From: Spiroplasma floricola 23-6
GTDB taxonomy: Bacteria; Bacillota_I; Bacilli_A; Mycoplasmatales; Mycoplasmataceae
Reading direction: 5' to 3'
Assembly: GCF_002813555.1 (NCBI RefSeq)
Contig: NZ_CP025057.1
Coordinates: 1,104,001-1,168,000, forward strand
Length of the DNA stretch: 64,000 bases
The notes under the pieces were generated by a model. The model did not search any database, had not been told where the DNA came from, and was given only the letters and a program-made list of their open reading frames with translations. Each line of letters starts with the position of its first letter. Position 1 is the first letter of the stretch. The translations under genes and the position numbers were made by a program. Of this stretch, positions 6,708 to 33,821 are shown piece by piece.

Positions 6708-7319
6708 TTATTTAGTTTTTTTGCTTAATTTTAAGCTATGTTTTTTTAATTTATTATCAATATCTTTATTTATTTTTTCAATTGTTTTATTTAAATCTTC
6801 TTCTAATTCTTTTTGCAAGACAAAACTTTCCTTACCAATTGAAGCAAAATCTTTAATTATTTCAGTTTTTTGTAAATATGCAAATTCTGAATCTAAATTA
6901 TTTTTTTGTTTTCTAACTCATGGAGCATCACTTAATTGCTGTTTGTGAGGTTCTGTAAAGGCGTTATCTTTTATAATTCCTGATTCAAATAATTGACTTA
7001 ATAAATAGTTACTTTTCAATTCATCTATTTTTAAAAATTTTATTAAATTTAAAGTTATTAGATCTTGTCTTGCAAAAACTCTTTTCAAAATAAGATTTAT
7101 ATTTTTTTCTAATAAATTTTGAATTACATCTTCTAAATAATCTATCTTATTACTTAATAAATCTTGATTTATTGAATTTATAAGTAAATTCTCTAATGTT
7201 TTATTTTTACTAATATCTAATTCACTTGAATTATATTTGCCTTCTCACTCTGAAAAAATATCTAAATTTTTTTTATTAGTGATTCTGATATTAACTTGTT
7301 TTTGTTTATGATTTGACAT
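6708..7319 (-). CDS. Hypothetical protein coupled to TraE
   Basis: 203 residues, charged, helical, soluble; two UGA-Trp codons. Its start ATG lies inside the 3' end of the TraE gene (14-nt overlap), with the SD GAGGTGAG in TraE coding sequence, so it is translationally coupled to it. The C-terminal 50 residues form a likely coiled coil ending in a basic tail. Position suggests a conjugation accessory protein; I recognise no family. Confidence 0.62.
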
Positions 7320-9996
7320 TTAAACTCACCTCGTTATTAAAAGCTCTAAATTGTTCTGGAGTTACTTTTACAGAAATTGTGTGTCTATCAAATCCTGTTA
7401 CCATTAATAACCCTTCACCTTGTTTTGCATATGCTATAAAATTAAGTTCTTCTTCACTTAAACCATCACCATAATTACTATAGAGTTGTGCAATATCTTG
7501 AATATTTTTTGATAATAAATTCATTAAAACTGAATATTGTACGTTGTTTAACATAGCCATAGTTTTTTTTCTAACATCTTCACTTCCTAAAAAATCATCT
7601 GGATTTTGAGTAATTAAAGTCATTGATCCTTTTCTTTTTCTAATTCTTTTAACCATTTGAAAAATAAAATTTAAAGCTATTGGTTTGTCTTTATCTACTA
7701 GTAAATGTGCTTCATCTATTAAAACAAAGCTTTCTTTTTTTGCATTAATAAAATTTGTATTTACTTCATTTCCAATAAATGCAGTAATCAAATAAAGTTG
7801 AGCTTGAATAATATTTTGTTGTCCTTTTTCAAATAAAGTATTTATATCAAAAACTATAAATGGATTATCATTTTTAATTAAAGTTGAATAACCATTATAT
7901 AAAGTAGCATATTGACCATAATTTTCAAATTCTGATTTTAATAAAGATAATAATTTCTCTTGAACATCACTATTTTCTTTAACAACTTTAGTTTTATTAA
8001 TAAATTTAATTAAATCACTCATTGTAGGATATTGTTCACTTTTTAAATTAACTATATCTTCAAAATCCCCTAATCAAGTTTCATATAGTTCTGCACAATT
8101 AGAGCTAAAACCTCTAATTATGTCTTTATTTAAATCACTAAATAATATTTCAAATCAACCAGTTAAAAATGCAACATGATTAGAAATAATTGTTTTATTA
8201 CTTGGTTTTATTTCATCATCTAAAGTAGTAAAAATTTGTAATGGATTAATTCTTCCTGAAGTTGCATTTCCTACATCAACTCAATTTCCACTATGATAAT
8301 TGCAAAGTGATCTATATTCTCTTTCAGGATCAACAACAATAACTTTTCTTCCAACTGAAGCATGATAATTTAATAGTAATTTTGCTAATGTTGTTTTTCC
8401 ACTTCCAGTTGTTCCCATAATAACCATATTATGATTTTTTCTATCTCCTGTTAACTTAAATTGATCTAAAATAACTGGATCACCTAACATATTTTCTCCA
8501 ATTCTAAATCCATTAGAATCATTTAATTCACTTGTCAAATATGGAAAACCTTCGGCTAATGTTATTGAAGGAACTTCTCTTGAAAAAGCTAAACTTAATG
8601 GATCTGTTGGTTTTAACATTATAGAAGATAATCCTTCAAATTGTCTATAAGCTAAGTGATCCAAGATAAATCCTGATTCTTTAAAAGAATCACTAAGGCT
8701 TTTAAATTTGTTTTCTAAATCAGTTTTATTAATTCCATAATTTAATACAAATACATTCATAGATTTAATAATTTCATTTCCAAAACCTATTGAATCTGCA
8801 ACTTCATTATATATTTCTAACTCTTGTTGCATTTCTCTTGCTCCAACTAATTCTTTTTTTGATAATGTATACATGTTACTTTGTAAATTTAAAATTGTAG
8901 ATTGTAATTTTTTAACAACTTTTTGTTTATTTAAATTTCCAATATTAATAACTACACTAGAATCATTTGTCATTAAAGGTAACATTCAACAGCGTTCAGG
9001 AAATTTGGGAAAATCTCTTATTACATTAACACTATAATTGATTTCTCCAGAATTAAAAGATTCTTTTTTAAATGTACAATCATCAAATTTCATAATATCT
9101 TTTAAATTACTTTTATTTTCATCAATTAACTCTTCACTAAATTCTTCTTCACTTGGATCAAATAAATATTTAATTGTATTAATAATTTCATAACCATTTA
9201 AAGAGTTTATATTTAGTCCTGCAATTTGACCTTTTTGAATAACACTATTAACCATTTCTTTACATTGTTTAAAATCAGAACAATATAAAAATAAATAATA
9301 TTTATGTTGAAAATTATCTTCACTTAATTGTCCATTTTCTTCAAATAATTGTAAACTAGCTTTTAATTGTTTAACTCTAGAATTAATTTGTTCATTTGTT
9401 AATTTCATTTCTTTTAATTCATTTATTTTATTATTTAAATATTGTGCTCCTTTAATTTTATTAAAGTTTTTCTCTAATTTTAATAATGAACAACTAACTT
9501 CTATATTTGATCAAAATGTTTTTAAAATATTTATTTTTCTTATTTGTTCATCATAACTCATATTTAATAAGTTATATCCTTCTAATTCAACAGCACATAC
9601 AAAAAATTCTTTATTTTCAAATAATTTGTCTGTTTTAATAACTCCTAACTCACTAATATTTCCAACTAACTCTTTATAGGGAATTAATAAACTAGTAGGA
9701 TAATTTTTACTATTTATTTCATATTTTTTATTAGAAGCTTTAAATTTTAAAAATAAATAGATTAAGTAATAAATTCTCATACCACTTCTACCATTTGGCA
9801 ATAGAAATATAGTTAAAAAACCAAAAATAAATATAGTTGTAATAACTTGACCAACTCATCCTATTACTGTTAAAGGTAAAGAAATTGCTAATGCAATTAA
9901 AATAAAAACTACACAACAAATAAAATCGATAAGAGTAATATTTCCTTTTATTTTTAATTTCTGACTACCTAATTTTTTGGGAATTATAGCACTCAT
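7306..9996 (-). CDS. traE: TraE/VirB4 conjugation ATPase
   Basis: 896 residues. N-terminal residues 20-75 carry two hydrophobic helices (a VirB3-like membrane part fused to VirB4, as in many Gram-positive and mollicute TraE proteins). Walker A GTTGSGKTT is at about 525-533 in MVIMGTTGSGKTTLAKLLL, and Walker B SFVLIDEAHLL at about 754-764, followed by ITQNPDDFLG, the VirB4 'Q' region. VirB4 proteins power substrate transfer through the type IV secretion channel at the membrane. Several UGA codons are Trp. It is first of an operon behind operator 10013 and a terminator module, with the SD AAAGGAAAAA. Length and motif order are normal for the family, so the gene looks intact. Confidence 0.93.
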
Positions 9997-10012
9997 ACTT
10001 TTTTCCTTTCTA

Positions 10013-10028
10013 TTTTCCCCAGGGAAAA
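10013..10028. promoter_or_regulatory. 16-bp palindrome, candidate operator, copy 3
   Basis: TTTTCCCCAGGGAAAA, 16 nt upstream of the TraE start. Same placement relative to the -10-like stretch as copies 1, 2 and 4. Confidence 0.62.
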
Positions 10029-10050
10029 TTTAATAATGATAAATAAAAAA

Positions 10051-10125
10051 ACTAGCAACTGCTAGTTACTAAAATATTAATTTAAACAAAAAAAATAGAG
10101 TCCTAGCGCTGCTAGTGCTCTATTT
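10051..10125 (-). terminator. Double-hairpin terminator module, copy 6
   Basis: ACTAGCAACTGCTAGT at 10051-10066 (one change) and the long hairpin at 10093-10125. It separates the TraG operon from the TraE operon. Confidence 0.75.
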
Positions 10126-10156
10126 ACCTTAATTTAAGTATAACATTAAAATTATT

Positions 10157-10702
10157 TTAATTTTTTCTAAATTTTTTTAAATTTGAAGATAAATAAACTT
10201 TTTCATTATCTAAATTAATAAATAATATTTTATCAAAAAAATATTTTTTTTCATCTAAACTTAATTTTAAAAAAGCAACATTTTCTTCTTCTGTAGAATT
10301 TTCAAAACCAATAGCTTTATAGATATTAAAATCTTCAAAAACATTAAATTTTATATCCATATTTTTCTTAATCGCTCATAATAAATTTTTTTTAACCCTA
10401 AAATATATTTTAATAAAAATAATATTAATTGCTTCAATTTCAATATGATTATTTGTTGTTACTGCTTTATTACAAAATACTTGAAATTTTTTAAAAAAAC
10501 CATAAATATATACACTATAAGGGCCATAAATATTTACATTAAACTTATCATTTAAATATTCATTTTCTTTTATTAAAAATTTTAACACTCTATTATTGAA
10601 ATTTCTTTTATGTTTAAAAAACGGAATAAAAATATAAGAAATTATTACAATTAAAATAGAAATAGTCAATGAAATTGCTGATATTAGTACTTCTGAATTC
10701 AT
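10157..10702 (-). CDS. Membrane-anchored hypothetical protein downstream of TraG
   Basis: 181 residues. One N-terminal membrane helix (about 5-28, SLTISILIVIISYIFIPFF), then a basic soluble domain. A UGA inside the gene (after KKNLL) is read as Trp and joins what would otherwise be two ORFs. The ATG at 10702 is preferred because of SD AGAGGTAATAAT; a longer in-frame start at 10738 lacks an SD. Last gene of the relaxase-TraG operon, 47 nt after TraG. No family recognised. Confidence 0.6.
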
Positions 10703-10749: not shown

Positions 10750-13212
10750 TTAAATTTGTTTTAATAAAGACTTTAATTCTTTTTGAAGTCTTTTTATTTC
10801 TTCTTTTTCATTACTTGATAATAAATCTTCTGATTTAGATTGTAAAATATATAAATCATTTCTAATATTTCTTTCTCTAGTTTTTAACTCTAATAATTTA
10901 TCAATATCTTGATCAGTAGTTTCTTTTAAAATTGAGAAAATATCTTCTCTAGCACTAGTTCCATCTTTTTCCAAAGCCTCATTTAAATTTACATTATCAG
11001 TTAATAAATCATCTTCATTAATTTTAGGTTTTATATCTAACTTAAATAAATTAATAAAGTAATCTTTTTCAAAGTTAATTGATTTATTTAAAGATATATC
11101 TTTATCTTGAATTTCAATCCCAAAAATCTCTTTAATTTTATAAAAATATTCATACGTTACAATATTTGGATTTGCTTCTTGATAAATTACAATAGCATAT
11201 TTATTATTTTCTTTTTTGTTTGGTGGAAATATCAATTTAATATCACTAGGTTCAATTAAAGGTTTTTTTTGTAAATGATATGAAAAGTTCTTTTTACCAG
11301 TTTTATTATCTATATTTGGAGTACTGTTAGATACTTCTACAGTTGTATCTCCACACATTTTTGAAATTTGTTCATGAGTTTTTGTAGAAGCTGATTTTAA
11401 ATAAACTGTTAGTAAACAGTTAGCCATTATTGTACTTGCAGTATCTGCTCCATATTTTGAATTTAACTGTTCAAAAGATTGCAAAACTAAATTAAAAAAC
11501 ATTCTTCTTCCCCTAGAAACTGTTAATATTGTTGCAAAGTTAACAATAGCTGGAAAATTACCAAATTCATCAAGATAAAATATTACATCCCTTTCTAATT
11601 GTTCTTTTCCAAATTTAATCAAATTCTGTCCTGCTTTAAATACATTAGCTTGATAAAGTTGACTTATAAATAGACTTGCTAATGGATGTTTTTGTTCTTT
11701 ATCATCAGGAACTATCATAAAAATAGCTTTTGGTTTTTCACTAGTTACAAATTCAAATAAATTTATATTATTTTTACATAATAGACTTCTTAATTCATTT
11801 CCTTCAAATAATTGTAAACTAGTAGAGATAATTGAAAAAAAGTTACCAATTGATTGACTTGAACTTGTTAAAACTTTATTTGCTGCAATTACAGATTGAT
11901 TAGATTCTCTTCCTTCACTTCATTTTTTAAAGAATTTTTGAATTTTATCTTTATCTGATAAATGAGTTGTAACAGTAACAATATTAAACTGATTTTCTGC
12001 AATTGAGTCAATATCTTCTTCAATCATTTCCATCATAGAGAAAATAAATCCTTTAAATAAACCTTGAGCACCATCATATCATTGTTTATTCTTATCATCT
12101 GCTCCAGGATTTAATAAAATTGCAGATAGATTATTAACTTCTTCATATGCGAGATTCTTTAATTTATTTGTTTCTCCTGAAATAAGTTCCTTTGCTAACT
12201 GTTCATCATTTGTTCAATAATCATCAATTTGATATATTAAAACTTCTTTTCAAATTAAAGCTAATTCATATTTTTCTGTATTTGGTTCAACATCATTGTT
12301 AACAGTATTATTTTTTAAAATTTCTTCTTTACAAATAGAACAGTTTTTTGCTTTATGATTTCTACATTTTATTTTTTTAATATAACTTTCAAATCCAAAT
12401 TTTGAATGAAAAGTATTTTGTACTACATGTTCTTTTACATAGTTAATTGCAGAAATTAAAAATTTATAAGCATTAGATAATGGATTTCAACTTTGTGAAT
12501 ACATTGGATCTCTTAAATTTAAAACAAGTATTTCATATCCTTGCTCTTCTAAAATTGAACCCAAATTTGCATGTAGTTCCCCTTTTGGATCTGAAAATAC
12601 CATACAAGGTTTTTTCTCAAATTCTAATTGACAATTAACAAAAGCAGATACATAAATAATTCTTTCAGTTTTTCCACTTCCTGTAGAACCAATTGTTATT
12701 GAGTGAACTGCTTTTTTAACAGGTATTCCTCAAATTTCAAGATTTTTTTTCTTATAATCAATTTGTGTTCTTGTAATGTAACTCGCTTCAGTAAAATTTT
12801 TATTATATACCTTTTCAAATTTAGTTAATTGTAGATTTCTAACTCTAATTTTATTACTTATTGGATTTTCATATTCATTTATATCTCAGGTTGCTTTACC
12901 AAAAGCTTTTTCTTTAGCTTCTTTTACTAAACTTTTAGACTTAACTTTTCCTTTAATATGAGCAAACAAGATAATAAATATTGTATGAATTAAACTTAAA
13001 AAAGTAACTAAATAAATAATTAAATTCTTTTCATTTTGAAAGTTAAAGTATTTAAATTTCTCTATTGTAATAATAAAATTAAATTCTGTTTTAAATAAAA
13101 CTACTAAAAATAATAGAAATAAAGTTAAAAATAAAATTGAAAAAATAGAAATTATAAATAAGGCAATTAAAATGAATTTTCTATATCGATTTAATCATTT
13201 ATTTTTTTGCAT
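10750..13212 (-). CDS. traG: TraG/VirD4 type IV coupling protein
   Basis: 820 residues. Two N-terminal membrane helices (about 12-35 and 60-85), Walker A GSTGSGKTE at about 174-182, the coupling-protein signature SDPKGEL after it, and a Walker B region VIFYLDEFGNFP near 540-551. This is the hexameric ATPase that brings the relaxase-DNA complex to the secretion channel. The C-terminal 150 residues are a charged linker/coiled coil, longer than the minimal VirD4 core. UGA-Trp occurs repeatedly, showing adaptation to the mollicute code. The start overlaps the small membrane gene by 14 nt. Complete and probably functional. Confidence 0.93.
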
Positions 13213-13450
13213 AAACTAAAATATAGGTAATTGTTGTAAAAATTAAAAATAAAGTTAAAAAAGTTAATCACAATATTAATGCATTTCTTTTTAATTTTTT
13301 TTGCTTTATTTTAAATTCATTATCAATTACTTGCTCCTTATTAATTTTTTTTAATTTAATTATTAAGCGAATATATTTATAAAAATAATAAATATAAAAT
13401 ACAAAAAATAGTGCATATATACATGACATTATTTTAATAATCAATTCCAT
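13199..13450 (-). CDS. Small two-helix membrane protein between relaxase and TraG
   Basis: 83 residues: helix at about 5-27, a basic cytoplasmic loop (KLKKINKEQ...KQKKLKRN), helix at about 59-78. It overlaps the relaxase 3' end (start at 13450, relaxase stop at 13434) and the TraG start, and has the SD AGAAGGAATTAT, so the three genes are translated together. One UGA-Trp. The position suggests a membrane adaptor for the coupling protein; that is inference. Confidence 0.7.
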
Positions 13451-15035
13451 TATAATTCCTTCTTTCTTTAATTAATTTATTTTTTTCTTTTGCTTCATTT
13501 TTTATAATATTCATAGCAGATTGTCTTGCTTTTCTTTTTTCTTTTTGAATCATTTGAAATAAGTTTTTTGGCATATATAAAAGAGAAGAAAAGTATTTTT
13601 TATTGTTACTTATTCCATTAGGATTAAATAAATTACTTCCTACATAACTTCTCTTAGATTTATATTTTTCTTTTTTTCAATTTCAAATAATTTTTTTTAA
13701 TACTTTATTTCCAAAAGCTGGTAAAATACCTTGAAAATAACCTTGAGCATTTAATGACTTTATATGTTCATTTCTATACTTCAGTTTTTTATACTTAATT
13801 TTTTCAATTGGATCTTCTAAATTTCAATCTTTTTCATCTTTTAATAAGTCTTGTGTAGTTAAAATAAAACTTTTTTCTTCTATTTTTAAATCAACATTTT
13901 CTAATTCATAACTAGAATAAATTTGACAAAACTCTTCTGCTTTTTTATTATTTTCTTCAACAAAAATGTCATATTCTTTTTTTAAGTTAACATCACTTTT
14001 AATAAAATCTAAGGTAATTTCATCTAACTTTTTTCGATCTAAATCACTTATAAATTTAGAACCATAAGTAATTTTTTTTAATGGAATATCTTTAAAACTT
14101 CCAAAATTTAACTTTAATTTTTGTTGTAATTGATTAGAAAATAACTCAATTTTATCAATTAAATTTACTTTACTTTTATTAATATCTACATAAATTTGTT
14201 TTGCATCTTTTCATGATGTATTTACATTATTAGAAAATTGCTCTCATGATATTTCAAATCTTTCTCTTAAATTACGTTGAGTTTCTAAAAATCTAGAATT
14301 ATCTTTTTGTTGATTTCTAATATTCATATCTAATCCAGCTCTAAATTCAATTTTTGAATAAAGTTTACCATTTTGTTTTCAAACTCTTTTTCTTTTTGGT
14401 TTTCCATATTTATTTAAAACTTTATTTTTATTATTATCTAAAACATACTCATAACTGGTAGGTTCTTTTTCAAAGAAACCTAAATGAATATGATTATTAT
14501 CTGTATTTGTATGCATTGAAAAAAATCAATTTACTTTTTCATAATCCATTCCATTATCACTAAAAAAGTTTTTTAATTCAGTATTTAAAGCTTTCTGAAC
14601 TTTTTCGGGAGTATAAAGATTATTTTCTTTAATAAAATCATCAGAAAAAGAAACAATAGTATCTCAAAAAACTTGGTTATCATCTAAGTTCTTCATATCT
14701 TTTCTTAATTCTTTAACTTCTTCTATACTCATTAGTCCATTTTTTGAATAAATTCCAGTACTTTTAAAGTTTTTATTTATTTCTTCAAGCATTTTATTAT
14801 ATTTAACTTTTTCCTCTCTTGATCCAGTTCTTAAAGTATTTAATAGTTTTACTTGTTCATCATCTATATTTAGATTAAAAACAGCATCAGGTCTAGAAAT
14901 ATAATTTAAATAATCACCAGATTTATAATAATTATCTCTAGATTTTTTACTTTTATTTCTTACTTCTTTTGTTACTGGATCAATTGGTTGATTAAAGTTT
15001 AAAGTTTTAAAAATAACTCCAGGAGCTTTTTTCAT
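13434..15035 (-). CDS. mob: Relaxase, MOBP/MobP2-like
   Basis: 533 residues. The three-histidine metal site is visible as HTNTDNNHIHLG at about 174-185, the HxxxxNxHxH motif III of relaxases; near the N-terminus YLNYISRPDAVF (about 43-54) resembles the motif I region with candidate nicking tyrosines. Relaxases nick oriT and stay bound to the 5' end during conjugation. The C-terminal half is basic with coiled-coil character and has no primase or helicase motif that I can see. Start at 15035 after GAAAGGAAAATAT. First gene of the operon with the small membrane protein and TraG. Assignment to MobP2 rather than another MOBP branch is tentative. Confidence 0.82.
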
Positions 15036-15050
15036 ATATTTTCCTTTCTA

Positions 15051-15066
15051 TTTTCCCCAGGGAAAA
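15051..15066. promoter_or_regulatory. 16-bp palindrome, candidate operator, copy 4
   Basis: TTTTCCCCAGGGAAAA, 15 nt upstream of the relaxase start and next to the -10-like stretch. Confidence 0.62.
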
Positions 15067-15088
15067 TTTAATAATGATAAATAAAAAA

Positions 15089-15161
15089 ACTAGCAGCTGC
15101 TAGTTTTTAAAGTATTAATTTAAACAAAAAATAGAGTCCTAGCGCTGCTAGTGCTCTATCT
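15089..15161 (-). terminator. Double-hairpin terminator module, copy 7
   Basis: ACTAGCAGCTGCTAGT at 15089-15104; long hairpin 15129-15161. Here no gene lies immediately upstream on the minus strand: about 140 bp separate it from the terminator of the restriction-modification gene. The module therefore seems to belong to the promoter/leader of the downstream operon and not to the preceding gene. Confidence 0.75.
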
Positions 15162-15301
15162 ACCTTATAAATATAATAACACATATTAAATTTAATATTA
15201 TTATATAATTTACTGTTATTTAATCTTAAAAAATGCTTTCATTTTATTGATATTTGTTTCTCCTTTGACATTTGGCAAGTACCAATAAGTTAAGTATAAA
15301 A
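15162..15301. other. Intergenic region next to relaxase, possible oriT
   Basis: About 140 bp without a gene, beside the relaxase operon. It holds a short interrupted repeat TTGG-CAAGTA-CCAA near 15271-15284. The region beside a relaxase gene is the usual place for oriT, but I see no family nic consensus that I can name. Confidence 0.3.
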
Positions 15302-15343: not shown

Positions 15344-17032
15344 TTATTTTGCTATTGAGTCTAAGTATTTTTCAAATCTAAATAAATTAAACATGTTTTC
15401 AATTCTATCAAGAGCATTTATAACAATATCTCTATTTTTTCTTAAACCAGGTCCATCAGCAACATAAATAAATTGATATTTTTTAAAATCTTTAAATTTA
15501 TCTTCTAGTCTAATAAATCTTGGTAATTCACTATTCATTTTAGAGCCTGAATCATTGAAAAAATTGCATTCTAAACAATATGTTATATCTTTTATTTTAA
15601 ATACAAAATCGAATCTTTTGTCTTCTTTCAGCATAGCTTCTCCAAGAATTTTATTTTGACTAACTTCTTTTTCAAAAGATATATCTTTTGAAATTAACAA
15701 TTCTTTTATAAAGTCACTCATAAATTTTCCAGATTTATTTTTTTTATCGTGTGAAGATAATCCAACTTTTAATCCAAATAAATATGTTTTTATATCTTTA
15801 TATTCCGAATTAACAAACAGATTATTAATTAATCCTGATTCATCCATAAAATTAAAAATATCATCTTTATCATTTAAATTAAATTGATTTTCAGTATTCT
15901 TATTATCTATATAAGTAAAAGGTTCTTTTTTATTTTTAATATTATTATTTGCTAGTAATATAGGAATTAATTTTAAACATTCTCTTCTATTTTTGAATAT
16001 ATCATTAAAATTTAATCTAAACTCTTTAATATCTTGTGAAAACAAAATATTTAAATCGTTTATCAAAATTTTATTTTCACTTAGAAAATCTTTAATTTTA
16101 TCTCATGAAACATATTTTTTTAAGATATATGATGTAGATTTTAATTCTTTAAAAAACAATGTTTGATTTAATTTATACTCTTGTTCTTTACTCAAAATAT
16201 AGTTAGTTATTATAGTTTCAAAAGTGGAATTTTGTCTATTATCAGAATCTGAATTAATAAATCTATTTACAGGAATCCTATAAATATTAAAGTTTTTATA
16301 AAGTTCATTAATTAATTCGGTATTATGATTTGTCAAAATTCATTTAACTCCTTTTTTATCGACATTAATTAAAAAATTATTTAATCTAATTTGACCTTCT
16401 TTACCAAAAGAATTGGATGTGTACGAATCAAATCCTTTGTTATCAAAATCATATGGAGGATCCAAAAAAATAAAATCATCTTTCTTAGCTTTATTTAAAA
16501 TTTCTTCAAAATCATCATTTAATATCTCTATATTATTTTTATTTAAAAACTTAGAAATATTTAATAAATTTTTTGAATCAAATATTGTTGATTCTTTTAT
16601 AATTTCCTTATTATTGAAGGGAGTATTAAATTTATTATTTTTATTAACCCTATAAAGTCCATTAAAACAAGTTTTATTTAAGTAAATAAACCTTGCTGCA
16701 ATTTGGATTTCAGATAATTTATTTGGATCTTTATCTCTCAATTTATAATAATAATCTTTTCCGTTTTTATTATGCTCTTTCACATATTTACTTAATAAAT
16801 TCATTAATTCAGAACTATTGGATTTTATAACTTTTCAAGTAGTTATTAATTCAAAATTAACATCAGATAAAACAGCTTTTTGTGGCAGTAAATCTAAGAA
16901 TACTGCACCACCACCTAAAAATGGCTCAAAATAATTATTTATTTTTTCTGGTAAAAATATATTTAAAATTTCTAATAATTGTCTTTTTCCGCCAACTCAT
17001 TTTACAAAAGGCGCTATTTTTTCTTTATTCAT
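15344..17032 (-). CDS. Fused DpnII-type methyltransferase and restriction endonuclease (GATC)
   Basis: 562 residues in one frame. Residues 1-275 are a D12-class N6-adenine methyltransferase: FVKWVGGKR (9-17), FEPFLGGGAVF (SAM site, about 35-45), LDPPYDF (catalytic DPPY, about 190), ILTNHN and the TFETIITNY end, as in Dam/M.DpnII. Residues from about 300 to the end match the DpnII/MboI endonuclease type: LIPILLA, then a PD-(D/E)xK-like core KRFDFVF...CLECNFFNDSGSK (about 475-500). In known systems these are separate genes of about 280 residues each; here no stop or obvious SD/ATG separates them. GATC specificity is inferred from both halves. SD AAGGAAATC before 17032. Confidence 0.85.
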
Positions 17033-18684: not shown

Positions 18685-20631
18685 TTAAAATACTGCATTT
18701 TTACAACTTGGGTAGTCTGAACAACCTATAAATTTCTTAGTTTTTTTGGTTTTTTTATCAGTATAACTTCTTTCGATCATGTAACCATTTTTACAAATTT
18801 CACATAATTTATTATTTGAATAATCTGGTTTATTAAACTTAATAAAATCACAGTTTGGATAATTTGAACAACCTTTAAATTTTGTTCCTTTTTTACTTAC
18901 TCTCTCTAGAATATAGCCTATTTGACATTTTGAGCACTTTAATCCATCAAAATTGTAATTAGTAGATAAATTATCTAATTTTAAATAAAAATCCTTTAAA
19001 TATTGTTTATGATTAACTATTTTATTATTAGCTATTAAATCTAAGTCTTTTTCCATGTTTTTAGTAAAATCTAAATTTATAATACTTTTAAAATTTTCTT
19101 CTAAAAAGTTATTAACTTTTAAACCTAATTCATTAACTATCATTGATTCAGATTTAGTTTTTTCTAATTCAACATAACCTCTTAAAACATTTACTTCTAT
19201 TGCTGTTTTATAAGTACTAGGTCGACCAATTTCTAATTTTTGTAACTGTTCAATTAAACTAATTTCATTTAGTTTGCTTGGAGCTTTATCATAATCTTCA
19301 ATAATTTCTAAATTACTTACATTTAATTTGCTATCTTTAAAGTAATTAAATTCAATATTTTTAGCTAATTCCAAACTTTTATCAATTTCATAATAACCTT
19401 TATTAATAAACTGCTTTAAATTTGTATAAAAAATACTTCCATTATTTTCTAAGAAAACTTCTTTTTTAATACCACTTGGCTTTTGATAAATTGAATTAAT
19501 TGTATTTTGCCAAATTAATCAATACAATTCTTTTTCTTTATTACTTAATTGCTCACTACAATAATTGTCAATGTCTTCAACAAGTCATTCAAAATGAGTT
19601 GGTGTAATTGCTGGATGTCCTTCTTGATCTGTTTCTTTAGTTTGAGTTTTAATAAGTTTGCCCAATTTATCTTGTCCAAAATGATTAATAATAAATTTAA
19701 TTAAATTCTGTTCAGTTTCATGATCTAAATTATTTGAATCAGTTCTAATATAAGTTATTAATCCTTTTTCATATAAACTTTGAGCTAATTGAGTAGTTTC
19801 TTTAGTTTTTAGCTTTAATTTTGATTTAGCTGCTTTTAATAAATCTGCTGTTGAAAATGGTTTAAAATTACTTTCTTCAAATTTAGTTTCTTTTATCTCT
19901 TTTACAATAAAACTATCATTTAAACTATTTTTTAACTCTAAAACTTTTTGCTTATCATAAATTTTATTAATTACTAACTTGTTATTTTCATTATAAATAT
20001 AATTTTTAAAAATTATATCTTTAATAACTTCATCTTGTATATAAAAGTATTGTTTTTTATCAAAAGCTTCAATTTCTTTTTGTCTATTACACAATATTTT
20101 TAACACTGCACTTTGTACTCTTCCTGCACTAGCAGCTCCAATAGTTTTTTGCAAAATTGGAGAAATTCTAAACCCAACCATTCTATCAAGCATTTGTCTT
20201 GTAATAGCAGAGTTTACATAACTTTGGTTTATTTCATTTAAGTTATTTAATTCTTTTTGAATACATTCTTTTGTAATAGCATTTAATCTCATTCTTTTAA
20301 AATTATTATTATATTTTTTTAATATTTCAAATAAATGAAAAGCAATTGCTTCACCTTCTCTATCAGGATCTGTTGCAATAATTATTTCCTTTACATTTTT
20401 AGCTTGTTCAATTAATTCATTTACAACTTGTTTTTTATCATTTGAAATTTTATAAATTGGATTCATTTGTTTTAAATCAATTCCCATATTAAAGTCATTT
20501 TCATTTGAAAGTTCTCTAACATGTCCAATTGAAGCTTTTACAATGTAATTATTACTACTATCAATTTCTTTTAAAAACTGACTTACTTTTTTAATTTTAC
20601 CTGGTGATTCTAATATAACTAGTTTAGTCAT
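18685..20631 (-). CDS. topA: DNA topoisomerase I (type IA), element-borne
   Basis: 648 residues. TOPRIM domain at the N-terminus (KLVILESPGKIKKV, then IATDPDREGEAIAFHL near 95), active-site region GLITYIRTDSNNL with the catalytic Tyr at about 290, and two C-terminal C4 zinc ribbons (CSKCQIGYI...CSNYPNC and CEICKNGYM...CSDYPSC). Type IA enzymes relax negative supercoils by cutting one strand; on conjugative elements extra copies help replication or transfer. Its place inside the mobile element suggests a second copy to a chromosomal topA. Two to three UGA-Trp codons in the middle join the frame. It looks complete. Confidence 0.9.
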
Positions 20632-23849: not shown

Positions 23850-24098
23850 TTATCTTGAAAATATTTGATTTAAAGAATTTAGAAGATCATTATAATTGTA
23901 TTTATCCATTAATGTAGAAAGTATTCAATATCTGTTTCTACTTAAAGTAGTTTGATTAACTCATTTTTCTTTATCATCAACTATTTTCTTTTTTTCTCTA
24001 ATTATTTTTAAAGCTTGATGAATTTCATCATAATCATGATATTTTGAAATATTTAAAAGTCATAAGTAATGATTTTTTTCTAATAATTTATAAGCCAT
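23850..24098 (-). CDS. Small hypothetical protein after ParB
   Basis: 82 residues, helical, soluble (MAYKLLEKNHYLW ... LNQIFSR), with three UGA-Trp. Start at 24098 after AAGGTAGGTGTTTGT, 8 nt beyond the ParB stop, so likely co-transcribed. Family unknown. Confidence 0.52.
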
Positions 24099-24106
24099 AC
24101 AAACAC

Positions 24107-24859
24107 CTACCTTTTAAATAAATTTACAATCTGATTTAGCTGATCTAAATTTTTAAAATTTATAATTAATTTATTATTTTTTATACTAACTTTATATTTA
24201 TTCTCTAAAGCTAAACAAATTTCTTGTTCTTGAATATAAAAATCTTCTCCAACTTTATTTTTAACTTTTTCTTCTAAATCTTTTTTTGAAACTTTATTGC
24301 TAATAACTTCGTTAATTAAATCATTTTTTTCTTCATTAGATAAATTTTTTTGACTTGCAATAATTGAAGCTTTACTAATTTCTATAGAACCATTTTCAAT
24401 TTTTTCTTTTGCTTGTTCATCTAAATTATTAATTGCTAACATTTTATTTACTCAACTAACTGACTTTCCAAGTTGTTCACCAATATCTTCTTGAGTCATT
24501 CCAGAATCATAGAGCTCCTTAATACTTAATGAAGTTTCATATGAACTCATTTCTTCTCTTTGAATATTTTCAATAATTGATGCTTGTCTAAAATCTTTTT
24601 CAGTTGCATTTCCTACTAAAATAATACATTCAATAGTTTTTTTATTTAGTAACTTACAAGCTTCTAATCTTCTTTGTCCTGCAATAAGTTTTATCTCATT
24701 TTTATTATTTAAATTTACAATTATAGGTTGAAGTAAACCCACCTTTTTAATTGAATTTGCTAACTCCTCAATTTTTTCTTTATTAAAACTTTTTCTTGGT
24801 TGAAAAGGATTGGGAAGAATTCTTTCAAGTTCAATTTCTTTGATTTTATTTACTGCCAT
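24107..24859 (-). CDS. parB: ParB-like partition protein (PRTRC-type context)
   Basis: 250 residues. The N-terminal ParB/Srx-type CTPase domain has NPFQPRKSFN and the LIAGQRRLEAC box (residues about 17-75), followed by REEMSSYE and the helix-turn-helix MTQEDIGEQLGKSVSW (about 115-140), where the last Trp is UGA. ParB proteins load at parS and spread. No ParA gene is in the window. It is encoded 6 nt after the candidate ubiquitin-like gene and in the same direction as the E2-like and ThiF-like genes, the association that defines PRTRC cassettes. The repeated 16-bp palindrome of the element is a possible binding site. Start follows AAAGGATAAAAATAT. Confidence 0.88.
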
Positions 24860-24865
24860 ATATTT

Positions 24866-25285
24866 TTATCCTTTCTTAGGAGATTCTATTACATAGTAAA
24901 ATATGTTATCTTCTTTATCATATTTAAGCTCAGCATTTTTATATTCTCATTTATTAATAATTCCATTTGGATTAACAACTTTTTTATGAATGTAATTTTG
25001 ATCAATAACTTCATTTTCTTTAATAGATATATGTATTTGAAATTCTTCACCATCTATTCTTAAAATAGAACCTTTTGGAATATCTATAATTTCATCTACT
25101 TCTATTTCTTCAACTTTTTGTTTTTCTTTTGAAGTTTTTGCTTTATTAACTTCTTTTTCTTTATTATTACTTTCATTTTCATTAGAATTATCTGTCTTTA
25201 TTTTTTCTTTAATTTTTTTACCAGTTTTAAATTTAAAAGCTGGTCATGTTACTTTTGTTTCTTGATTTTCATTAAATATTGACAT
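24866..25285 (-). CDS. Candidate PRTRC protein C (ubiquitin-like) with N-terminal linker
   Basis: 139 residues: residues 1-70 are a charged disordered linker, and residues 72-139 form a compact beta-rich region (ILRIDGEEFQIHIS...) ending NIFYYVIESPKKG. From memory, PRTRC system protein C (Prok_Ub family) is a small beta-grasp domain ending in a Tyr/Phe-rich strand and a terminal TKG; the end of this protein has the same character and a terminal Gly. It lies between E2-like and ParB genes. This is a hypothesis from resemblance and context; it could equally be an unrelated adaptor. A palindrome (25301) lies 16 nt upstream; SD AAAGGTAAAAAAT. Confidence 0.45.
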
Positions 25286-25300
25286 ATTTTTTACCTTTAT

Positions 25301-25316
25301 TTTTCCCTGGGGAAAA
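25301..25316. promoter_or_regulatory. 16-bp palindrome, candidate operator/parS, copy 5
   Basis: TTTTCCCTGGGGAAAA in the short gap between the protein B-like gene and the protein C-like gene. No terminator module accompanies it, unlike copies 1-4. Confidence 0.6.
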
Positions 25317-25321
25317 TCTTT

Positions 25322-25981
25322 CTATCTTTTATTAAAAAGTATTTTTTCATTAATTTTTTTGTATTGTTTTAAACCTTCTAATCCTTTTAAGAAATGTACT
25401 GGTTTTGTAAACTCTTCATTTATTTCAGTTCATTCATGACTAAATTTTGTAGAGAATATATAGTTTATAAGATTATCTAATTCATTTAACTCTTTTATTT
25501 TTTTTAAAGAATTAAGATTTCCCAAACATAAATCTCCAGATTCATAAAAATGAGGTAAGCGCATTGAGAAAAATTTAGTTTTTTCATTTAATTCTCCACT
25601 AAATGCAAATAATCGAATATTTCAGTTATTGGAAATATTTAATTTATCTAATCTAACTTCTGCAATTAGTTGAGGCAAAAATATAGTTTTGTGAATATAT
25701 TTACCTTTGCTATAAGCAAAAATATCTCTTATAGAAGGTTCATAATAAAAGAAATAAAAATCAGAAGAATCATTGGATTTCATAGCAATAAGTTTTTTTG
25801 AAAAATTTATATTTCCAATTTTATCAATATTATTTTTTGTATTAATAAATAATCAATTTAAAAATTCATTAAATTTAATTCATCCAGATTGATTAATTCC
25901 ACTTTTATTTTCTAATTCTACTTTACAATAACCTTTATCATTTTTATCAAACTCCAATTTCAATTTAGAAAAGGATTTCAT
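25322..25981 (-). CDS. PRTRC protein B-like (prokaryotic E2-like) protein
   Basis: 219 residues. The pattern FFYYEPSIRDIFAY (about 77-90), FLPQLIAEV (101-109), IRLFAF (122-127) and LPHFYESGDLCLGN (142-155) follows what I know of PRTRC system protein B (Prok-E2_D): an aromatic strand, P-x-L, 'L-x-V-F-A' and a final 'P-x-x-N/F...G-x-V/L-C-x-G-N', where the Cys (here residue 152) is the proposed conjugation cysteine. By analogy it would accept a ubiquitin-like protein from the ThiF-like E1. In-frame ATGs at 25987 and 25990 are alternatives; SD AAAGGAATG. Overlaps the upstream gene by 17 nt. Confidence 0.68.
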
Positions 25982-26387
25982 AATCATCATTCCTTTCAAA
26001 AGTAATTTCTGTACAAGTTATCTCTTTTTCAGGTATAGATGAAGTTTTTGTTTCTTTTTCAACTTCTTTTTTTAGTTGAATAAAATTATAAAAACTATTT
26101 ACATTAAGTTTTAATAATTTAGGATTTTGATCAAGTATTTCTTTAATTTTAATAACTCAATTTAAATCTAATTCACCTCATCCACAAATTTGTGCTCTAA
26201 GTTTTTCATATATGTATCATGTTTTAGATATTTTTCTAATTGACTGAATAAGTTCTAACTCAGTAAAACTGTTTTCATTTTTTTTAATAAATTCATTGTA
26301 TTTACTTTTATCAATAATTTTTTTATTCTTTAAAGGGTTTGCATCTAAAAGTTTAATCTCTTTTATTTCTTTTAAATTTAGCTTCAT
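25965..26387 (-). CDS. Hypothetical protein in the ThiF/ParB cassette
   Basis: 140 residues, soluble, starts MKLNLKEIKEIKLLD. It contains a Trp-rich stretch (YEKLRAQICGWGELDLNW) and an acidic tail. Overlaps both neighbours (35 nt with the 172-residue gene, 17 nt with protein B), implying coupled translation. No JAB-type metal motif (ExnHxH...SxxD) is present, so it is not the protease component. Not recognised. Confidence 0.55.
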
Positions 26388-26871
26388 CTATAAGCTCCTT
26401 TATCAATTTACGTTTTTCTTCCAATTCTTTTAAAAATAAAATATCTTGATTTTGATTTTTATTAGTTATTGATATTATTTCAAAATATAATTCATTTTTT
26501 AAATCTAAAATTTTTATATTTTCTGAACTTTTAAAGTTTTGTAATAAATACTCTTTTTGATATTTAGGAATTTTAGTTAAATACTTTGTTGTAACAAATA
26601 ATTTATTTTTATTTTTTTCAAAAATAAAATTAGGCTCTGATAAATTTTGATTTATATTAAGTAAAATTGTTTCATATAAATCAAACTTATCATGATTAGG
26701 TATGAGCACTTTATTATAAACTGCAATATTTTTTATTAATTTATCTCTTTGTCAAGCTAACAAATAAATTTTATTTATAATATGTTTTTTCAAAAAATAG
26801 ATTCTTTCTACATTACAATCTTTAATAATTTTTAAATTACTAATAAATGTACTAATTTGGTGTTTTTCCAT
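26353..26871 (-). CDS. Hypothetical protein in the ThiF/ParB cassette
   Basis: 172 residues, one UGA-Trp, mixed alpha/beta, ending in a helical basic tail (KELIDEAKFKRNKRD). The start is inside the 3' end of the ThiF gene (20-nt overlap), the SD being within it (AAAAATGGAAA is weak). The tight packing suggests a partner of the E1/E2-like proteins. No catalytic motif visible. Confidence 0.55.
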
Positions 26872-27619
26872 TTTTAATACTTTCTTTAATTTTTTCAATT
26901 TTAGAATTAAATTCACAAAACTTAATATGATATTTCTTTTTTATATACATATCAATATTTGATAAAACTTTTAAAATTAAATTGCTTGTTTGATCATTTG
27001 TTGCAAATTGTTGAACAACTCCGTCATTTATTAACTCTTCACAACTTTCTTCTGATATTTTTAGTTCTGTTTCTTTTTCAATTTTTAAATTATAAATATT
27101 GCTTCTAAATTCATTAATTAAAATATCACCATATACATCTTCATTTGCTGAATCAATATAAATTACATCCGAAGTTTTAGAATATCCGATTCAACTAAAA
27201 TCTTTTTCTGATAATCAATCTTTAAACATATCTGTTGATTTTTCAATAAATATTCTAGTTTTATGATTATCAACACAACTTATTATTATTACTTTATTAA
27301 AAGTATTATTAAAAGTATTATTAAAAGTATTATTAAAAGATTTAATTATTTTAAATAAAGAATTCTCTTTATTTAAAAATTTATTAATAGAATAACAATT
27401 TTTAAATCTACTTATACTATTTATTTTTTTAGCTAAACTTTCAGCCTTGAAGTTATAAACATCATGAGTTTGAAAAGGTTGTCTTGTGACATTTTTATAT
27501 TCAACTTTATCTCCATCAATTAATACTAAATTATCATTATTTGATAAAAATTTTGCTAGTTTTCCAGCAAGAAGACCACCTGTGCCTCCTACTCCAATTA
27601 AAAATATTATTTTATCCAT
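26852..27619 (-). CDS. ThiF/E1-like adenylating enzyme, PRTRC type
   Basis: 255 residues. Rossmann nucleotide-binding start IFLIGVGGTGGLLAGKLA (4-21), acidic ribose site LVLIDGDKVE followed by NVTRQPF (the conserved E1 Arg), KAESLAKKIN, and SCVDNHKTR (about 112-120) in place of the usual 'CxDxxxxR'. A later ESCEE (about 187) matches the conserved 'SC' position of the PRTRC ThiF group. E1-like enzymes adenylate the C-terminus of a ubiquitin-like or sulphur-carrier protein. A 12-bp tandem repeat encodes NNTF units near residues 93-107. The SD (AGGGAAAA) is half of the palindrome at 27621. Complete gene with one UGA joining its parts. Confidence 0.85.
27295..27340. repeat. 12-bp tandem repeat inside ThiF-like gene
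   Basis: About four copies of AAAAGTATTATT, in frame, encoding NNTF repeats. It may vary in copy number without frameshifting because the unit is a multiple of three. Confidence 0.85.
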
Positions 27620-27620
27620 T

Positions 27621-27636
27621 TTTTCCCTGGGGAAAA
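27621..27636. promoter_or_regulatory. 16-bp palindrome, candidate operator, copy 6
   Basis: TTTTCCCTGGGGAAAA filling almost the whole gap between the DnaC-like stop and the ThiF start. On the minus strand its right half, AGGGAAAA, is the only SD-like sequence for ThiF, so a protein bound here would act on DNA while the same bases serve translation. Confidence 0.6.
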
Positions 27637-28227
27637 TTAAAAATCAATATATTCAAAATTTTTATTTTCAACTTCATTGGAGTATCTTTTATCAATTCCT
27701 TCAAATTCTATATTTAAATTCATTAATCCTTTTAATCTAGAAATTATTCTTGAAGAAGTTATATTATCAGATTTAGTACTATAGTTTTTTTCTAACTTAT
27801 CTAAATCATAATTTGAAGTAATTATTGTAATTAAAGTATTATCTTGTTTACTCTTTTCAAATCTTTCATTTAATAAATTGTAAATATAAGGAAGTGTAGA
27901 TTTGTGAATAAATTCACTGCCTAAATCATCTAAAATTAAAATTTGTTTTTGAGCTAAGCGACTAGGACTAGGAGCATAAATTCCTTCATAGCCATTTTCT
28001 CAAGCACTTTGATGAGATTTGATTCATTGTGAGACATTAACTAATTCAAAATTAGATCTTGAGTTTTCAACGAATTTATTAATAAAAGTGGTTTTACCAA
28101 CTCCTGGTTTACCATAGATATAAATTCCATTATTTTTAAAATTTTCTTTTTGTTTAGCTTTTTCAAATAAAGAATCAAATTTTGTATAATCTAAATCTTG
28201 ATCAACATTAAATTTAGTTTTAATCAT
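27637..28227 (-). CDS. DnaC/IstB-like AAA+ ATPase (helicase loader type)
   Basis: 196 residues with Walker A YGKPGVGKTTF (about 36-46), Walker B QILILDDLGSE (about 93-103), sensor TIITSNYD (about 138) and a C-terminal arginine region SSRIISRLKGLM, then FEGIDKR, the usual DnaC/DnaI/IstB order. Such proteins load the replicative helicase or serve transposases; here replication of the element is likely. It has UGA-Trp (VSQW). It overlaps the upstream 119-residue gene by 8 nt and is followed by the ThiF gene. Confidence 0.85.
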
Positions 28228-28579
28228 AAATTTTTTCTCCTATAAATTTTGTTACAAATTCTCTATACTCTTGAGAATTTTTATTATTTAATTCTTCAAA
28301 GAAATTAGCTAAAATTTTACCTGAAATCAGATTTACTTGCTTTTCTCCTAAAGAGTAAATTATTTCTTGATAGTAATGAATTTCCTTGGTTTTAAAATTA
28401 ACAATGTTAACTTCAATTCCAAAACGATTCTTATATTTACTAGATAAATAGTAATTTTTATAAATTCAAATTAGTCCGTTTGTATTTCAAGGGCTTTGAA
28501 TTGCAAAAGCTGTTTTATTACTATTTCAACCCTTAAATCAATGGTTCAATAACCACACTTTTTGATTTTCACTCCCCAT
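28220..28579 (-). CDS. Hypothetical protein, first gene of the right-end operon
   Basis: 119 residues, Trp-rich at the N-terminus (four UGA plus one UGG: VWLLNHWFKGW, SPWNTNGLIW). Overlaps the DnaC-like start, so the two are coupled; a protein that precedes a helicase loader could be a replication initiator or its accessory, but no such fold is visible. SD AAAGGACATCT, with the palindrome at 28595 immediately upstream. Confidence 0.58.
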
Positions 28580-28594: not shown

Positions 28595-28610
28595 TTTTCC
28601 CTGGGGAAAA
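28595..28610. promoter_or_regulatory. 16-bp palindrome, candidate operator, copy 7
   Basis: TTTTCCCTGGGGAAAA, 15 nt upstream of the first gene of the operon that reaches ParB. Confidence 0.62.
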
Positions 28611-29033: not shown

Positions 29034-29453
29034 TTACCCCCTTACTTTTTCCCTCGCCCTTTTATTAGTTCCATCATATTTTACACTTATCTCAGTTGGT
29101 TTTTTTGGATTATTAATTAAATAACTCAAATTAATTGAGTTATTTTTTGGTCCTAGTTTATTAAATTCTAATATAAAATAATATTTAAACTCATTCATTT
29201 TAAAAAGTTTTTCCTTTGAAAAATTTATAATATATATTTTTTGTTCTAAACTAAAGTTAATGCTCAAGTTTTTTTTCGCGAAATCAGTTTTTTTAATAAC
29301 TGATGGCTTTTCTTTCTCTTGAGTATCGTTTTCTCCTTTTATTTCTACATTATTAGATTTAGTATAAGAATATATTAAAAAACTCAAAATAGATATTGTA
29401 AATAATAATAAAATTGATACAAAAAACAGCTTATAATTTTTTTTCTTTTTCAT
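29034..29453 (-). CDS. Membrane-anchored hypothetical protein
   Basis: 139 residues with a strong N-terminal membrane helix (MKKKKNYKLFFVSILLLF..., about 8-30), then a Lys-rich exposed part ending KRAREKVRG. No lipobox Cys, so an anchored rather than lipid-modified protein. It overlaps the preceding gene by 23 nt and has AAAGGAT as a distant SD. Family unknown; secreted-facing accessory protein is inferred. Confidence 0.58.
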   Translation of the reverse strand: MKKKKNYKLFFVSILLLFTISILSFLIYSYTKSNNVEIKGENDTQEKEKPSVIKKTDFAKKNLSINFSLEQKIYIINFSKEKLFKMNEFKYYFILEFNKLGPKNNSINLSYLINNPKKPTEISVKYDGTNKRAREKVRG

Positions 29454-30926: not shown

Positions 30927-33821
30927 TTAAGAAACAGTAAAAATTTCTGGTTTTTCAAGAATTGATTTAACTTTTGCCAAGAATTGTCCTGCTTCTGCAG
31001 CATCAATAATTCTTTGATCTACTGTTAAACTCATATTCATTATTGCTTTAATAGCTAATTTTTCATTATCAACTACAACTGGCTTTTTAACAACTTTACC
31101 TACACCAACAACTGCAGCGTTTGGATAAAAAATTGTTGGAGTTGCTTGAATTGCTCCAATATTTCCATAGTTGGCAATCGTAATTGTACTTCCATCAACT
31201 TCATAATTATAAAGTTCTCCTGATCTAAGTCTTGAAGTTACTTCTTTAATATCTATTGCCACTTCTTTTATTGATAACTTTTCCACAAACTTAAGTACAG
31301 GAATAATTAATCCTTCTGTTGTTTCTGTTGCAAGACCTATATGATGATATTTTTTAATTAATACTTCATTTGTTTCAGCATCATAACTTGAGTTCAATTT
31401 TGGATATTCTTCAAGAGCAATAGAAATAGCTTTTGCTATAAATGAAATTGTAGTAAATTTAATATTATTTTGAGTTTGTTTCAACATGTGTTTTAATTTT
31501 AAAATAGCACTCATATCTATTTCAGTTGAAATAGTAAGAGGAGGTATAAAATTTTGACTTAAAATCATTGATTTAACTGCTGGATTTCTATTTTTATTTA
31601 CCTTAGTTCTTTCAACAACTTTATTTTCATCATTAGATTCAAATTGTAAATAACCTAGAGAGTTATCTGGTTTATCTTTTTCAAAATTTACATCCTGAAT
31701 ATTTTCTTTCTCTCTCTCTTTTTTATCAAATTCTCATTTTTCTTTTAAGTCTCTTTCAACTCTTTCAATTATTTCTCTTTCTAATCGAGCTCTTTCTTCT
31801 TCTTGACATTTTTTTTCTTTTAAATCTTTTGCAAATGAATTAATTTCATCTTTAATTATTGCTTTTAAATCATTTGCATTAAATTCTCTGTTAGGTTCTC
31901 TTTTTTGATTTTGATTCATATTTTGGATCATATTTTGCATTAACATATATTGCATCATTTGACCAAATGTATCTGTTCCAGCATTAAAATGTGATTGTTG
32001 ATTTAATTTTGAAGTTGCTGCATTTAATTGATTTTGTTCTTTTAAAGTTCTTTGCAAATCTTTAATTTGATCTTTTAAAAATTCCAAAGTTTCATCTGCA
32101 ACTTTTTTATCTGATACTTTCACAAGTTCATCATCTTTCTTCTCAATTTCTGTTTTAATTTCTTTTTGAATAATTTTTGGTGTTTTAACCAATATTTTTT
32201 CTTCTTCAAAATCCTGAGTAGGCTCTATTTGTTCTGTATTTTCTACAATTATATTTTCATGAGTTCTTTTAAAAGGCACTCGAATATTGCTTAAAGTTTC
32301 TTGAGTAGTTTCAATATTTTGTTTTTCTTTATATGCAGTATATAGATTTGTAGCTCTTAGTCAAGCTTCAAACTCTTCTATTCCTTTTGGTGTTTGATTA
32401 TAAGGAATATAGAGCATAGCTCCAGTAATAGGGTCTTGATGAGGTACTTCTCTTAAAAATTCTTTTGGAATACCAATTTCATTAATTTTTTTATTGAAAT
32501 CCATATTATCTTCTTGAATTCCTTTTTCAACCACTTTTCTTCTTTGATTAATAAGATTTCTCTCATCACGATTTTTTATAATATCTCATCTTCTTGAAGT
32601 ATCATAAAGATTTGAAAGTTTTGATTCAGCATAAGTTTTGGTTGGTTTATGAATAATCTCTTCCACTAATTCCTCTGGTTTCTTTTTAGGCATAATAATT
32701 CCACTATGAGGACTTAAATCATTTGCATCAATTGTATTTTCTTCATCACTTTCAATATAAGACCCATATGATATTCCAAAAAGACCATCTTGAGAAGATC
32801 CTTGTTTTATTAATGTTTTCTTTAAATTAACGTCAAAATCTCTTTGTTTCATTTTTTCAACCTCTTGTGTACTGTTGACATTATTAGCAGAGCTTTTAAG
32901 TCTTTGATTATCGAGTATAGCATTACTTTTTGTTGCTACTATATTTTGTTCAAGAACACTTGGATCTCCCCCAGCATTATTTAATTTTTCCATTCTAGCT
33001 TGAATAATATTTCTCATTATTAAAGGTCTACCTTTTTCATCAGTTTTTGACATTGCATCAATTACTTGATTTTCATTTTGAGCCTCTTTAAAATCATTTT
33101 CTTCTAAAAGTTTTTCTTTTCTAGCTTGAACTAATTGTCTAAACTTACTTACTCCTGATGAATTATTTGTCGAAAATAAATTACTACCAGCTTCTTCATT
33201 TATGTCTTCTTTAGTCATTTTAAGTAATTCTTCTCTTGTTAAATCACCTATAACTTTATTTTGAGGAGCATTTTTAATTGAGTCTTTTATATTAGCTCTC
33301 ATTTGAGCAAACTTATCTTTTGGTTGTTGATTTCCTTGACTCATGCTTTGATCTTTTTCCTCCATTTTTTGAACTTTTTGTAAAGTATCCATAATGTCAT
33401 CTCTGCCTGTTGAAAAAGGTGTGACTGCTTGATTATATCTATCATATACAACAGCTCCTGAAAATGAATCAGCTACTGTTTCAACACCTTCTAACTTAGG
33501 TTCATCTTCTTGTGTTGAAATAAAAATTTCTTCTTCATTATTCTTTTTAGAATTTGTTTTTTTAATACTTTTATTTTTAAATTTTTGTATTTCTTTTTCA
33601 CCAACAGCAATATTTGCTAAAATACTTCCATTTTTTACAGAAGTTCCTAAATTAATAGTTTTTGTAATTATACCATTATAGTTGGATTTTATATTAATTT
33701 TAGACCCATCATCTAATTCTATAAGAGCAAAGTCTTGTCCAAAATTAATTTCTTCATCAGAAAATAATCATTCTTTTAAAATTCCTTTAGATGGTAAATT
33801 TCTAACCCTCATATGAACCAT
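30927..33821 (-). CDS. Giant dihydrolipoamide acetyltransferase (E2)-like protein with altered catalytic His
   Basis: 964 residues in one frame. Residues 1-75 resemble a lipoyl/biotinyl domain (ELDDGSKINIKSNYNGII, with Lys at the modified position). Residues about 110-720 are a long charged/Gln-Asn linker and coiled coil, including a QMMQYMLMQNMIQNMNQ stretch. The last 215 residues are an E2 acyltransferase domain (FTTISFIAKAISIAL, ATETTEGLIIPV, TITIANYGNIGA). The catalytic motif reads VDQRIIDAAEAG where active E2s have DHRxxDG: the active His is Gln and the Gly is Ala. Normal E2 is 400-550 residues. No E1 or E3 gene is adjacent; pta-ackA lie upstream. It may be a scaffold comparable to E3BP/protein X. 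Confidence 0.8.

Follow-up and report, generated by a model that had tools for sequence, protein, structure and literature searches.

What is a row of minus-strand genes that combines a ThiF-like enzyme, an E2-like enzyme and a ParB protein doing on a mobile element of a mollicute? The genes lie in a 64,000-nt stretch of Spiroplasma floricola 23-6 (GCF_002813555.1, NZ_CP025057.1, positions 1,104,001-1,168,000), which was analyzed as a whole and is called the window here. A sequence-only reading had described them as a PRTRC-like cassette with an E1, an E2 and a ubiquitin-like protein (Ubl). Our results favour a compact Ubl-conjugation cassette that belongs to an integrative conjugative element and shares its regulation, an explanation to which we give a probability of about two in three. 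By its anatomy the cassette resembles a Ubl-conjugation cascade, and the chemistry assigned to it below is inferred.

Open reading frames (ORFs) were read with genetic code 4 (TGA = Trp), and table 11 was used as a comparison. Under code 4, nine close-packed minus-strand ORFs between window positions 23,850 and 28,579 were all intact, which bears out the earlier description of co-directional, tightly packed genes; table 11 fragmented the cassette ORFs. The unit also takes in a conserved 119-aa ORF, which had no convincing family match in library searches, and an 82-aa ORF, both absent from the earlier gene list. Only the loader, E1, E2 (under the Pfam cut-off) and ParB were named by library matches among the ORFs of the unit, and the DnaC-like ATPase and ParB calls of the sequence-only reading held (Table 1).

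Starting from the E1, searches reached prophage-like loci in other Bacilli and then 41 genome and 44 viral loci. The order Ubl, E1, X, E2 was found in about 25 of them, where X is either one protein of about 270-305 aa or a pair of ORFs (about 180 and 115 aa). An Anaerorhabdus furcosa prophage is one of the carriers. The compact cassettes considered here are L023-L025, L038-L043, L079-L092, L095, L098 and L099; the libraries used hold no name for the compact Ubl-E1-X-E2 cassette. KG closes their Ubl domains and is nearly always the C-terminus of the whole protein as well; in L091 and L100 the chain runs on past it.

The window E1 carries the motifs IGVGGTGG and CVDNHKTR, and it is the sole ThiF-family gene of the 1.28-Mb genome. 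Its Cys193 and nucleotide-site residues were invariant across seven aligned E1s, from the window to canonical PRTRC. Together with the PF00899 match (Table 1), these features firmly support the predicted ThiF/E1-like identity. The match to PRTRC_ThiF had E = 1.6e-10 and 40.7 bits, so the TIGR03736 cut-off of 144.75 was not reached, and the E1 profile matched the Cap2 and BubCD structures weakly.

The best NCBIfam match of the E1, by a small margin, was ThiS adenylyltransferase (E = 2.8e-11, N-terminal half only). This match favours a ThiF/MoeB-like sulphur-carrier system, in which the E1 would activate a small protein for thiocarboxylation and the sulphur would go to a cofactor or nucleotide, with no protein conjugation. 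We consider such a system unlikely. A quick maximum-likelihood tree of 91 E1s, with Shimodaira-Hasegawa-like approximate likelihood ratio test (SH-aLRT) support, placed the window E1 in a group of 22 cassette sequences, two sequences of the window's genus and one more (support 96). The ThiF-family homologues at ordinary loci of other Bacilli, whose individual functions were not assigned, formed a separate group (support 98), and the canonical PRTRC E1s sat in a different supported group. The sequence-only reading had named clustering with MoeB/ThiF sulphur enzymes as the outcome that would speak against it; the tree gave the separation just described. Moreover, an E2-like gene with an invariant Cys accompanies the E1 in the cassettes, and library scans found no sulphurtransferase domain among the cassette genes.

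The E2 candidate has the motif GDLC152LGN and matched Pfam Prok-E2_D with E = 1e-4 (22.4 bits, cut-off 25). The candidate catalytic Cys was present in 34 of 34 sequences, and 25 of the 34 had the downstream His that Iyer et al. (2006; PMC1779556) described for type 6d E2s. Four E2s from the window's genus were combined in a profile that, compared by hhalign, matched the phage E2 profile (97%, E = 1e-10) and PRTRC protein B (E = 3.4e-5) and none of five unrelated families. A wide E2 profile that included the window reached protein B at 99.4% (E = 4e-21); TIGR03737, the protein B model, gave only E = 0.13 against the window E2 on its own. The E2 is a single copy in the genome, and such E2s are scarce: there were five clear cases among 395 Bacilli genomes, all five of which also had the cassette E1. 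These comparisons firmly support the protein B-like E2 that had been proposed from its conserved Cys.

The 139-aa protein is a probable Ubl, in line with what had been suggested from its SPKKG end. It shares the KG terminus with the phage cassette Ubls. With a hidden Markov model built on phage Ubls only, it ranked first among all window ORFs (E = 0.007; E = 0.0006 for the relative in genome G203); the runner-up, a chance ORF, had E = 0.012, so the ranking is weak taken alone. The window-set and phage Ubls aligned in hhalign with P = 7e-4, collinear through the terminal KKG; in 150 column shuffles with the KKG left in place, the score of the real comparison was never reached. The phage Ubl profile also matched PRTRC protein C (P = 0.001). 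A model of a phage Ubl homologue (pLDDT 86) showed a β-grasp-like order of strand-strand-helix-strand-strand. In a structural aligner used besides Foldseek, the top rows for this model were nearly all ubiquitin or Ubl domains, with Z up to 4.6, which is modest by the aligner's own note; its residues 14-79 aligned on ubiquitin 1-76 with the C-termini in register. Homology to this modelled phage relative suggests a Ubl fold for the window protein. A weak Ubl match in G319 was discarded, as it fell in low-complexity sequence of an unrelated protein of 674 aa (a phosphotransferase system transporter by inspection), with no cassette there.

Most of the canonical PRTRC loci tested had a JAMM motif, as did the Bacillus-type and jumbo-phage versions. 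The motif was absent near all compact cassettes, the window's included, except L091, and Prok-JAB had no match in the window genome, which agrees with the earlier remark that no JAB protease was visible. In L091:7130-7990, the only compact phage cassette with a fused JAB, the Ubl domain lies immediately in front of a JAMM-motif stretch (TKG|SS...HSHH...S..D) that has no Pfam match. This fusion suggests that a JAB is needed there for freeing the Ubl Gly.

The sequence-only reading had remarked that a reduced PRTRC version in a wall-less bacterium would be unusual. PRTRC proper, recently shortened in mollicutes through loss of proteins A, E and F, would account for the kinship of E1 and E2 and for the presence of a ParB. 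The E1, however, joins the JAB-less phage cassettes and not canonical PRTRC, and the ParB is of the Noc type: PRTRC_parB scored 81 bits, below both Noc and ParB_part (Table 1), against a cut-off of 279, and this model has 555 positions where the window ParB has 250 aa. Because the window E1 groups with Firmicutes phage cassettes that lack JAB, the JAB-less form exists well outside mollicutes, and recent reduction appears very unlikely.

The cassette is close to the right end of an integrative conjugative element that encodes VirB4, VirD4, a MobL relaxase and TopA. The VirB4 (cut-off of its model 590 bits), relaxase and VirD4/TraG matches in Table 1 support the carrier that had been read from the sequence. 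The element also encodes a pilin-like protein on the same strand as the cassette. DNA homology to most other copies stops at window 29,041-29,063, which places the right end near 29,060; the left end and att sites were looked for and not located. No plasmid record in PLSDB matched the window E1 protein, and the DNA search gave only a short ParB match.

A 16-bp palindrome, TTTTCCC(CA/TG)GGGAAAA, ties the cassette to this element. Seven copies were found in the window, where 0.02 were expected; genome-wide there are nine sites, all between 1,095,724 and 1,132,610 (37 kb), and the reversed control gave none. Each window copy lies 2-19 nt upstream of a start codon, that of the 119-aa ORF, E1, Ubl, relaxase, VirB4 or one of two further ORFs. 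The copies ahead of the 119-aa ORF, E1 and Ubl recur among relatives. Since the palindromes are common to cassette and transfer genes, the cassette appears to be part of the element's own regulon, through shared putative control sites that may act as operators or as mRNA hairpins.

These sites also bear on the idea that the cassette is cargo with a defence function of the CBASS/Bil/6A type, directed against phages or elements. The E1 did match PADLOC E1-E2 models (E = 1e-10), with a weak match to the 6A-MBL Cap2-3 model as well, and the carrier is mobile. Against this, the putative control sites are shared with transfer genes, the phage relatives adjoin replication and recombination genes, and PADLOC found nothing in E2, Ubl, X or Y. 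Library and PADLOC scans of the cassette genes found no signature defence partner (CD-NTase, MBL, JAB) and no effector. A defence role is thus a rather improbable one.

In the family, only the window's genus gave strong matches to the cassette E1 (its own genome, G203, G315, G318, G321 and G322); a seventh match, in G244, was weak. The gene-order search that had been proposed showed the order from the 119-aa ORF to ParB to be identical in G203 and G321. The copies in G315, G318 and G322 have stops or are truncated, a stop removes the last part of the G203 E2, and the G321 Ubl has an upstream frame break. A decaying relic without present function would leave such copies. The window copy is nevertheless intact, the G321 copy is otherwise mostly intact, and the palindromes are kept; the ratio of nonsynonymous to synonymous changes (dN/dS) between window and G321 was low (E1, E2, loader and 119-aa ORF; Table 1), so the cassette is under purifying selection between these two genomes. 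We therefore hold the relic to be highly improbable.

Table 1. Features of the cassette, the element and their repeats (window coordinates; dN/dS against G321)
Feature	Position	Strand	Evidence or remark
119-aa ORF, function not assigned, first gene of the unit	28220..28579	-	64-94% identity in relatives; dN/dS 0.10
DnaC/DnaI-like AAA+ helicase loader, 196 aa	27637..28227	-	PHROG DnaC-like loader E=1e-18; DnaI E=5e-14; dN/dS 0.16
E1/ThiF-family activating enzyme	26852..27619	-	PF00899 E=3e-14; GVGGTG nucleotide site, CVDN..R, candidate catalytic Cys193; dN/dS 0.19
X, about 172 aa, between E1 and E2	26353..26871	-	conserved in same-genus copies
Y, 140 aa, immediately precedes E2	25965..26387	-	conserved in same-genus copies
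E2-like enzyme (Prok-E2_D / PRTRC protein B kin), 219 aa, ATG at 25981	25322..25981	-	candidate catalytic Cys152, downstream His182; dN/dS 0.12
Candidate Ubl, 139 aa: K/E-rich N-terminal tail and core (residues about 60-139), end ...ESPKKG	24866..25285	-	profile comparison; phage homologue model
ParB/Spo0J/Noc-type DNA-binding protein, 250 aa	24107..24859	-	Noc 139 bits, ParB_part 126 bits, ParB_N E=6e-23
Conserved 82-aa ORF, downstream of ParB	23850..24098	-	59-91% identity in relatives
Palindrome upstream of 119-aa ORF	28595..28610		element-specific
Palindrome 2 nt upstream of E1 ATG	27621..27636		element-specific
Palindrome 16 nt upstream of Ubl ATG	25301..25316		element-specific
Palindrome sites in window	1328-1343, 5613-5628, 10013-10028, 15051-15066, 25301-25316, 27621-27636, 28595-28610		genome scan
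Type I topoisomerase (TopA), element-borne	18685..20631	-	syntenic in relatives
MobL/MobP2-type relaxase	13434..15035	-	PF18555 E=3e-16; palindrome upstream at 15051-15066
VirD4/TraG-type coupling protein	10750..13212	-	library match
VirB4 ATPase, mycoplasma-ICE type	7306..9996	-	NF045975 866 bits; palindrome upstream at 10013-10028
150-bp leader copies	about 1300-1475, 1795-1960, 2553-2705, 3870-4030, 5580-5760, 9985-10160, 15030-15200	-	repeat

Other features of the region were recorded. Seven copies of a 150-bp leader, each with two terminator-like hairpins (core AGCACTAGCAGCGCTAGGACT), lie on the minus strand ahead of element genes; their shape is as expected of an attenuation or antitermination leader, and no compensatory changes were found among the seven copies. 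A single minus-strand ORF of the element (window 15344-17032) fuses a Dam-type adenine methyltransferase to a DpnII endonuclease. Window 30927-33821 encodes an oversized PDH-E2-like protein of 964 aa. Its C terminus is a 2-oxoacid dehydrogenase acyltransferase, its N terminus is lipoyl-like by inspection, and the charged region between the two is very long.

In the proposed cascade, the E1 would adenylate the terminal Gly of the Ubl and take the Ubl onto Cys193; the Ubl would then be handed on to Cys152 of the E2, which would join it to a lysine of a partner protein. No maturation of the Ubl would be needed, because it is encoded with its terminal Gly already exposed. With no JAB for trimming or removal, the modification would probably be irreversible and non-degradative.

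The target would most likely be a protein of DNA replication or partition, from the element or the host, such as the DnaC-like loader, ParB or the clamp; this is the least certain step, and we propose it tentatively. It is suggested by the gene neighbourhood. In 9 of 19 phage cassettes the gene immediately upstream of the Ubl is sliding-clamp-like; those that were scanned matched PHROG 947, apart from that of L091. Other phage cassettes adjoin a RusA resolvase, a helicase loader or RecT. The window counterparts are the DnaC-like loader, which lies upstream of E1, and ParB, which lies downstream of the Ubl. DNA polymerase III beta (clamp) genes were also seen near PRTRC-type ThiF loci, in L124:1-732 (a Pseudoalteromonas plasmid) and L130:9210-10556 (a Chroococcidiopsis plasmid).

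Several observations weigh against a conjugation cassette of this kind. The 139-aa protein had no Pfam match, the profile match of the window Ubl set to PRTRC protein C was not significant, and the AlphaFold model of the window Ubl core was poor and unreliable (pLDDT 47) and was not used. For the phage Ubl model, the best Foldseek match had E = 0.26, with protein G/L-like folds among the matches, and the Z values of the other aligner were modest, as stated. Library matches gave no function for X or Y. The phage cassettes may stand in a replication context only because early genes cluster, and the decayed copies in other genomes show that the cassette is dispensable.

X and Y together have the length of the single phage X, and neither X/Y against phage X nor X/Y against PRTRC F gave a significant profile match; PRTRC proteins E and F are both divergent families. 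A motif-like C-terminal EV[IL][LF] of the phage X proteins was rejected, since it arises from in-frame translation of the E2 Shine-Dalgarno sequence (GAGGTG...ATG).

It is two decades since PRTRC-type Ubl genes became known from sequence. In the open-access papers searched we found no function assigned to them (judged by title) and no paper that joins Spiroplasma, ThiF and ubiquitin. The compact form cuts the problem down to Ubl, E1, E2 and X and shows that a JAB can be lacking. The genes around it suggest that the targets are replication or partition proteins, and the element-specific palindrome links the cassette to conjugation control. The 1.3-Mb genome has neither a second ThiF-family gene nor a Prok-JAB, so the simplest origin of a Ubl adduct would be the cassette locus, and the mollicute would allow a clean search for targets. 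More speculatively, and with considerable doubt, the cassettes of Firmicutes phages and of this mollicute conjugative element could represent a JAB-less, one-way Ubl tagging pathway of mobile elements. Its natural target would be the replication machinery (sliding clamp, helicase loader, ParB), for controlling the element's own replication or transfer, a prokaryotic parallel to PCNA ubiquitylation and SUMOylation.

Among known systems, the Bil, Bub and CBASS Cap2/Cap3 pathways have an E1-E2 logic like that of the window and a different operon content. The Bub and CBASS Cap2/Cap3 pathways have a JAB-family peptidase, unlike the window. Bil also differs from the window in having one (PMC11354881).

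PRTRC, or operon type 6d (Iyer et al., 2006; PMC1779556), has in common with the window a ThiF-type E1, an E2 with Cys and downstream His, a small protein with a C-terminal Gly and a ParB nearby. The window differs in having no JAB (protein A), no detectable protein F, another gene order and another ParB class, and its scores are far below the curated PRTRC cut-offs. The kinship behind the name "PRTRC-like" thus stands on the E1 and E2 comparisons and membership does not: judged by its sequences, the cassette is a compact JAB-less relative of PRTRC/type 6d. Thermoanaerobacterium pMU3262 (L027) resembles the window in its E1, E2 and KKG-ending Ubl and in having no JAMM match, whereas the Bacillus and Cytobacillus large-plasmid and jumbo-phage versions (within L027-L030) have similar E1 and E2 but also a JAMM-motif protein.

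The compact cassettes of Firmicutes phages and prophages differ from the window in three respects: the window cassette is on a conjugative element; its Ubl follows E2 and precedes ParB, whereas the phage Ubl precedes E1; and its X is split in two and not alignable to phage X. Like the window, they have an E1 of the same clade, an E2 with Cys and downstream His, a charged-tail Ubl ending in KG, unassigned protein totalling about 300 aa between E1 and E2, no JAB apart from L091, and adjoining replication genes.

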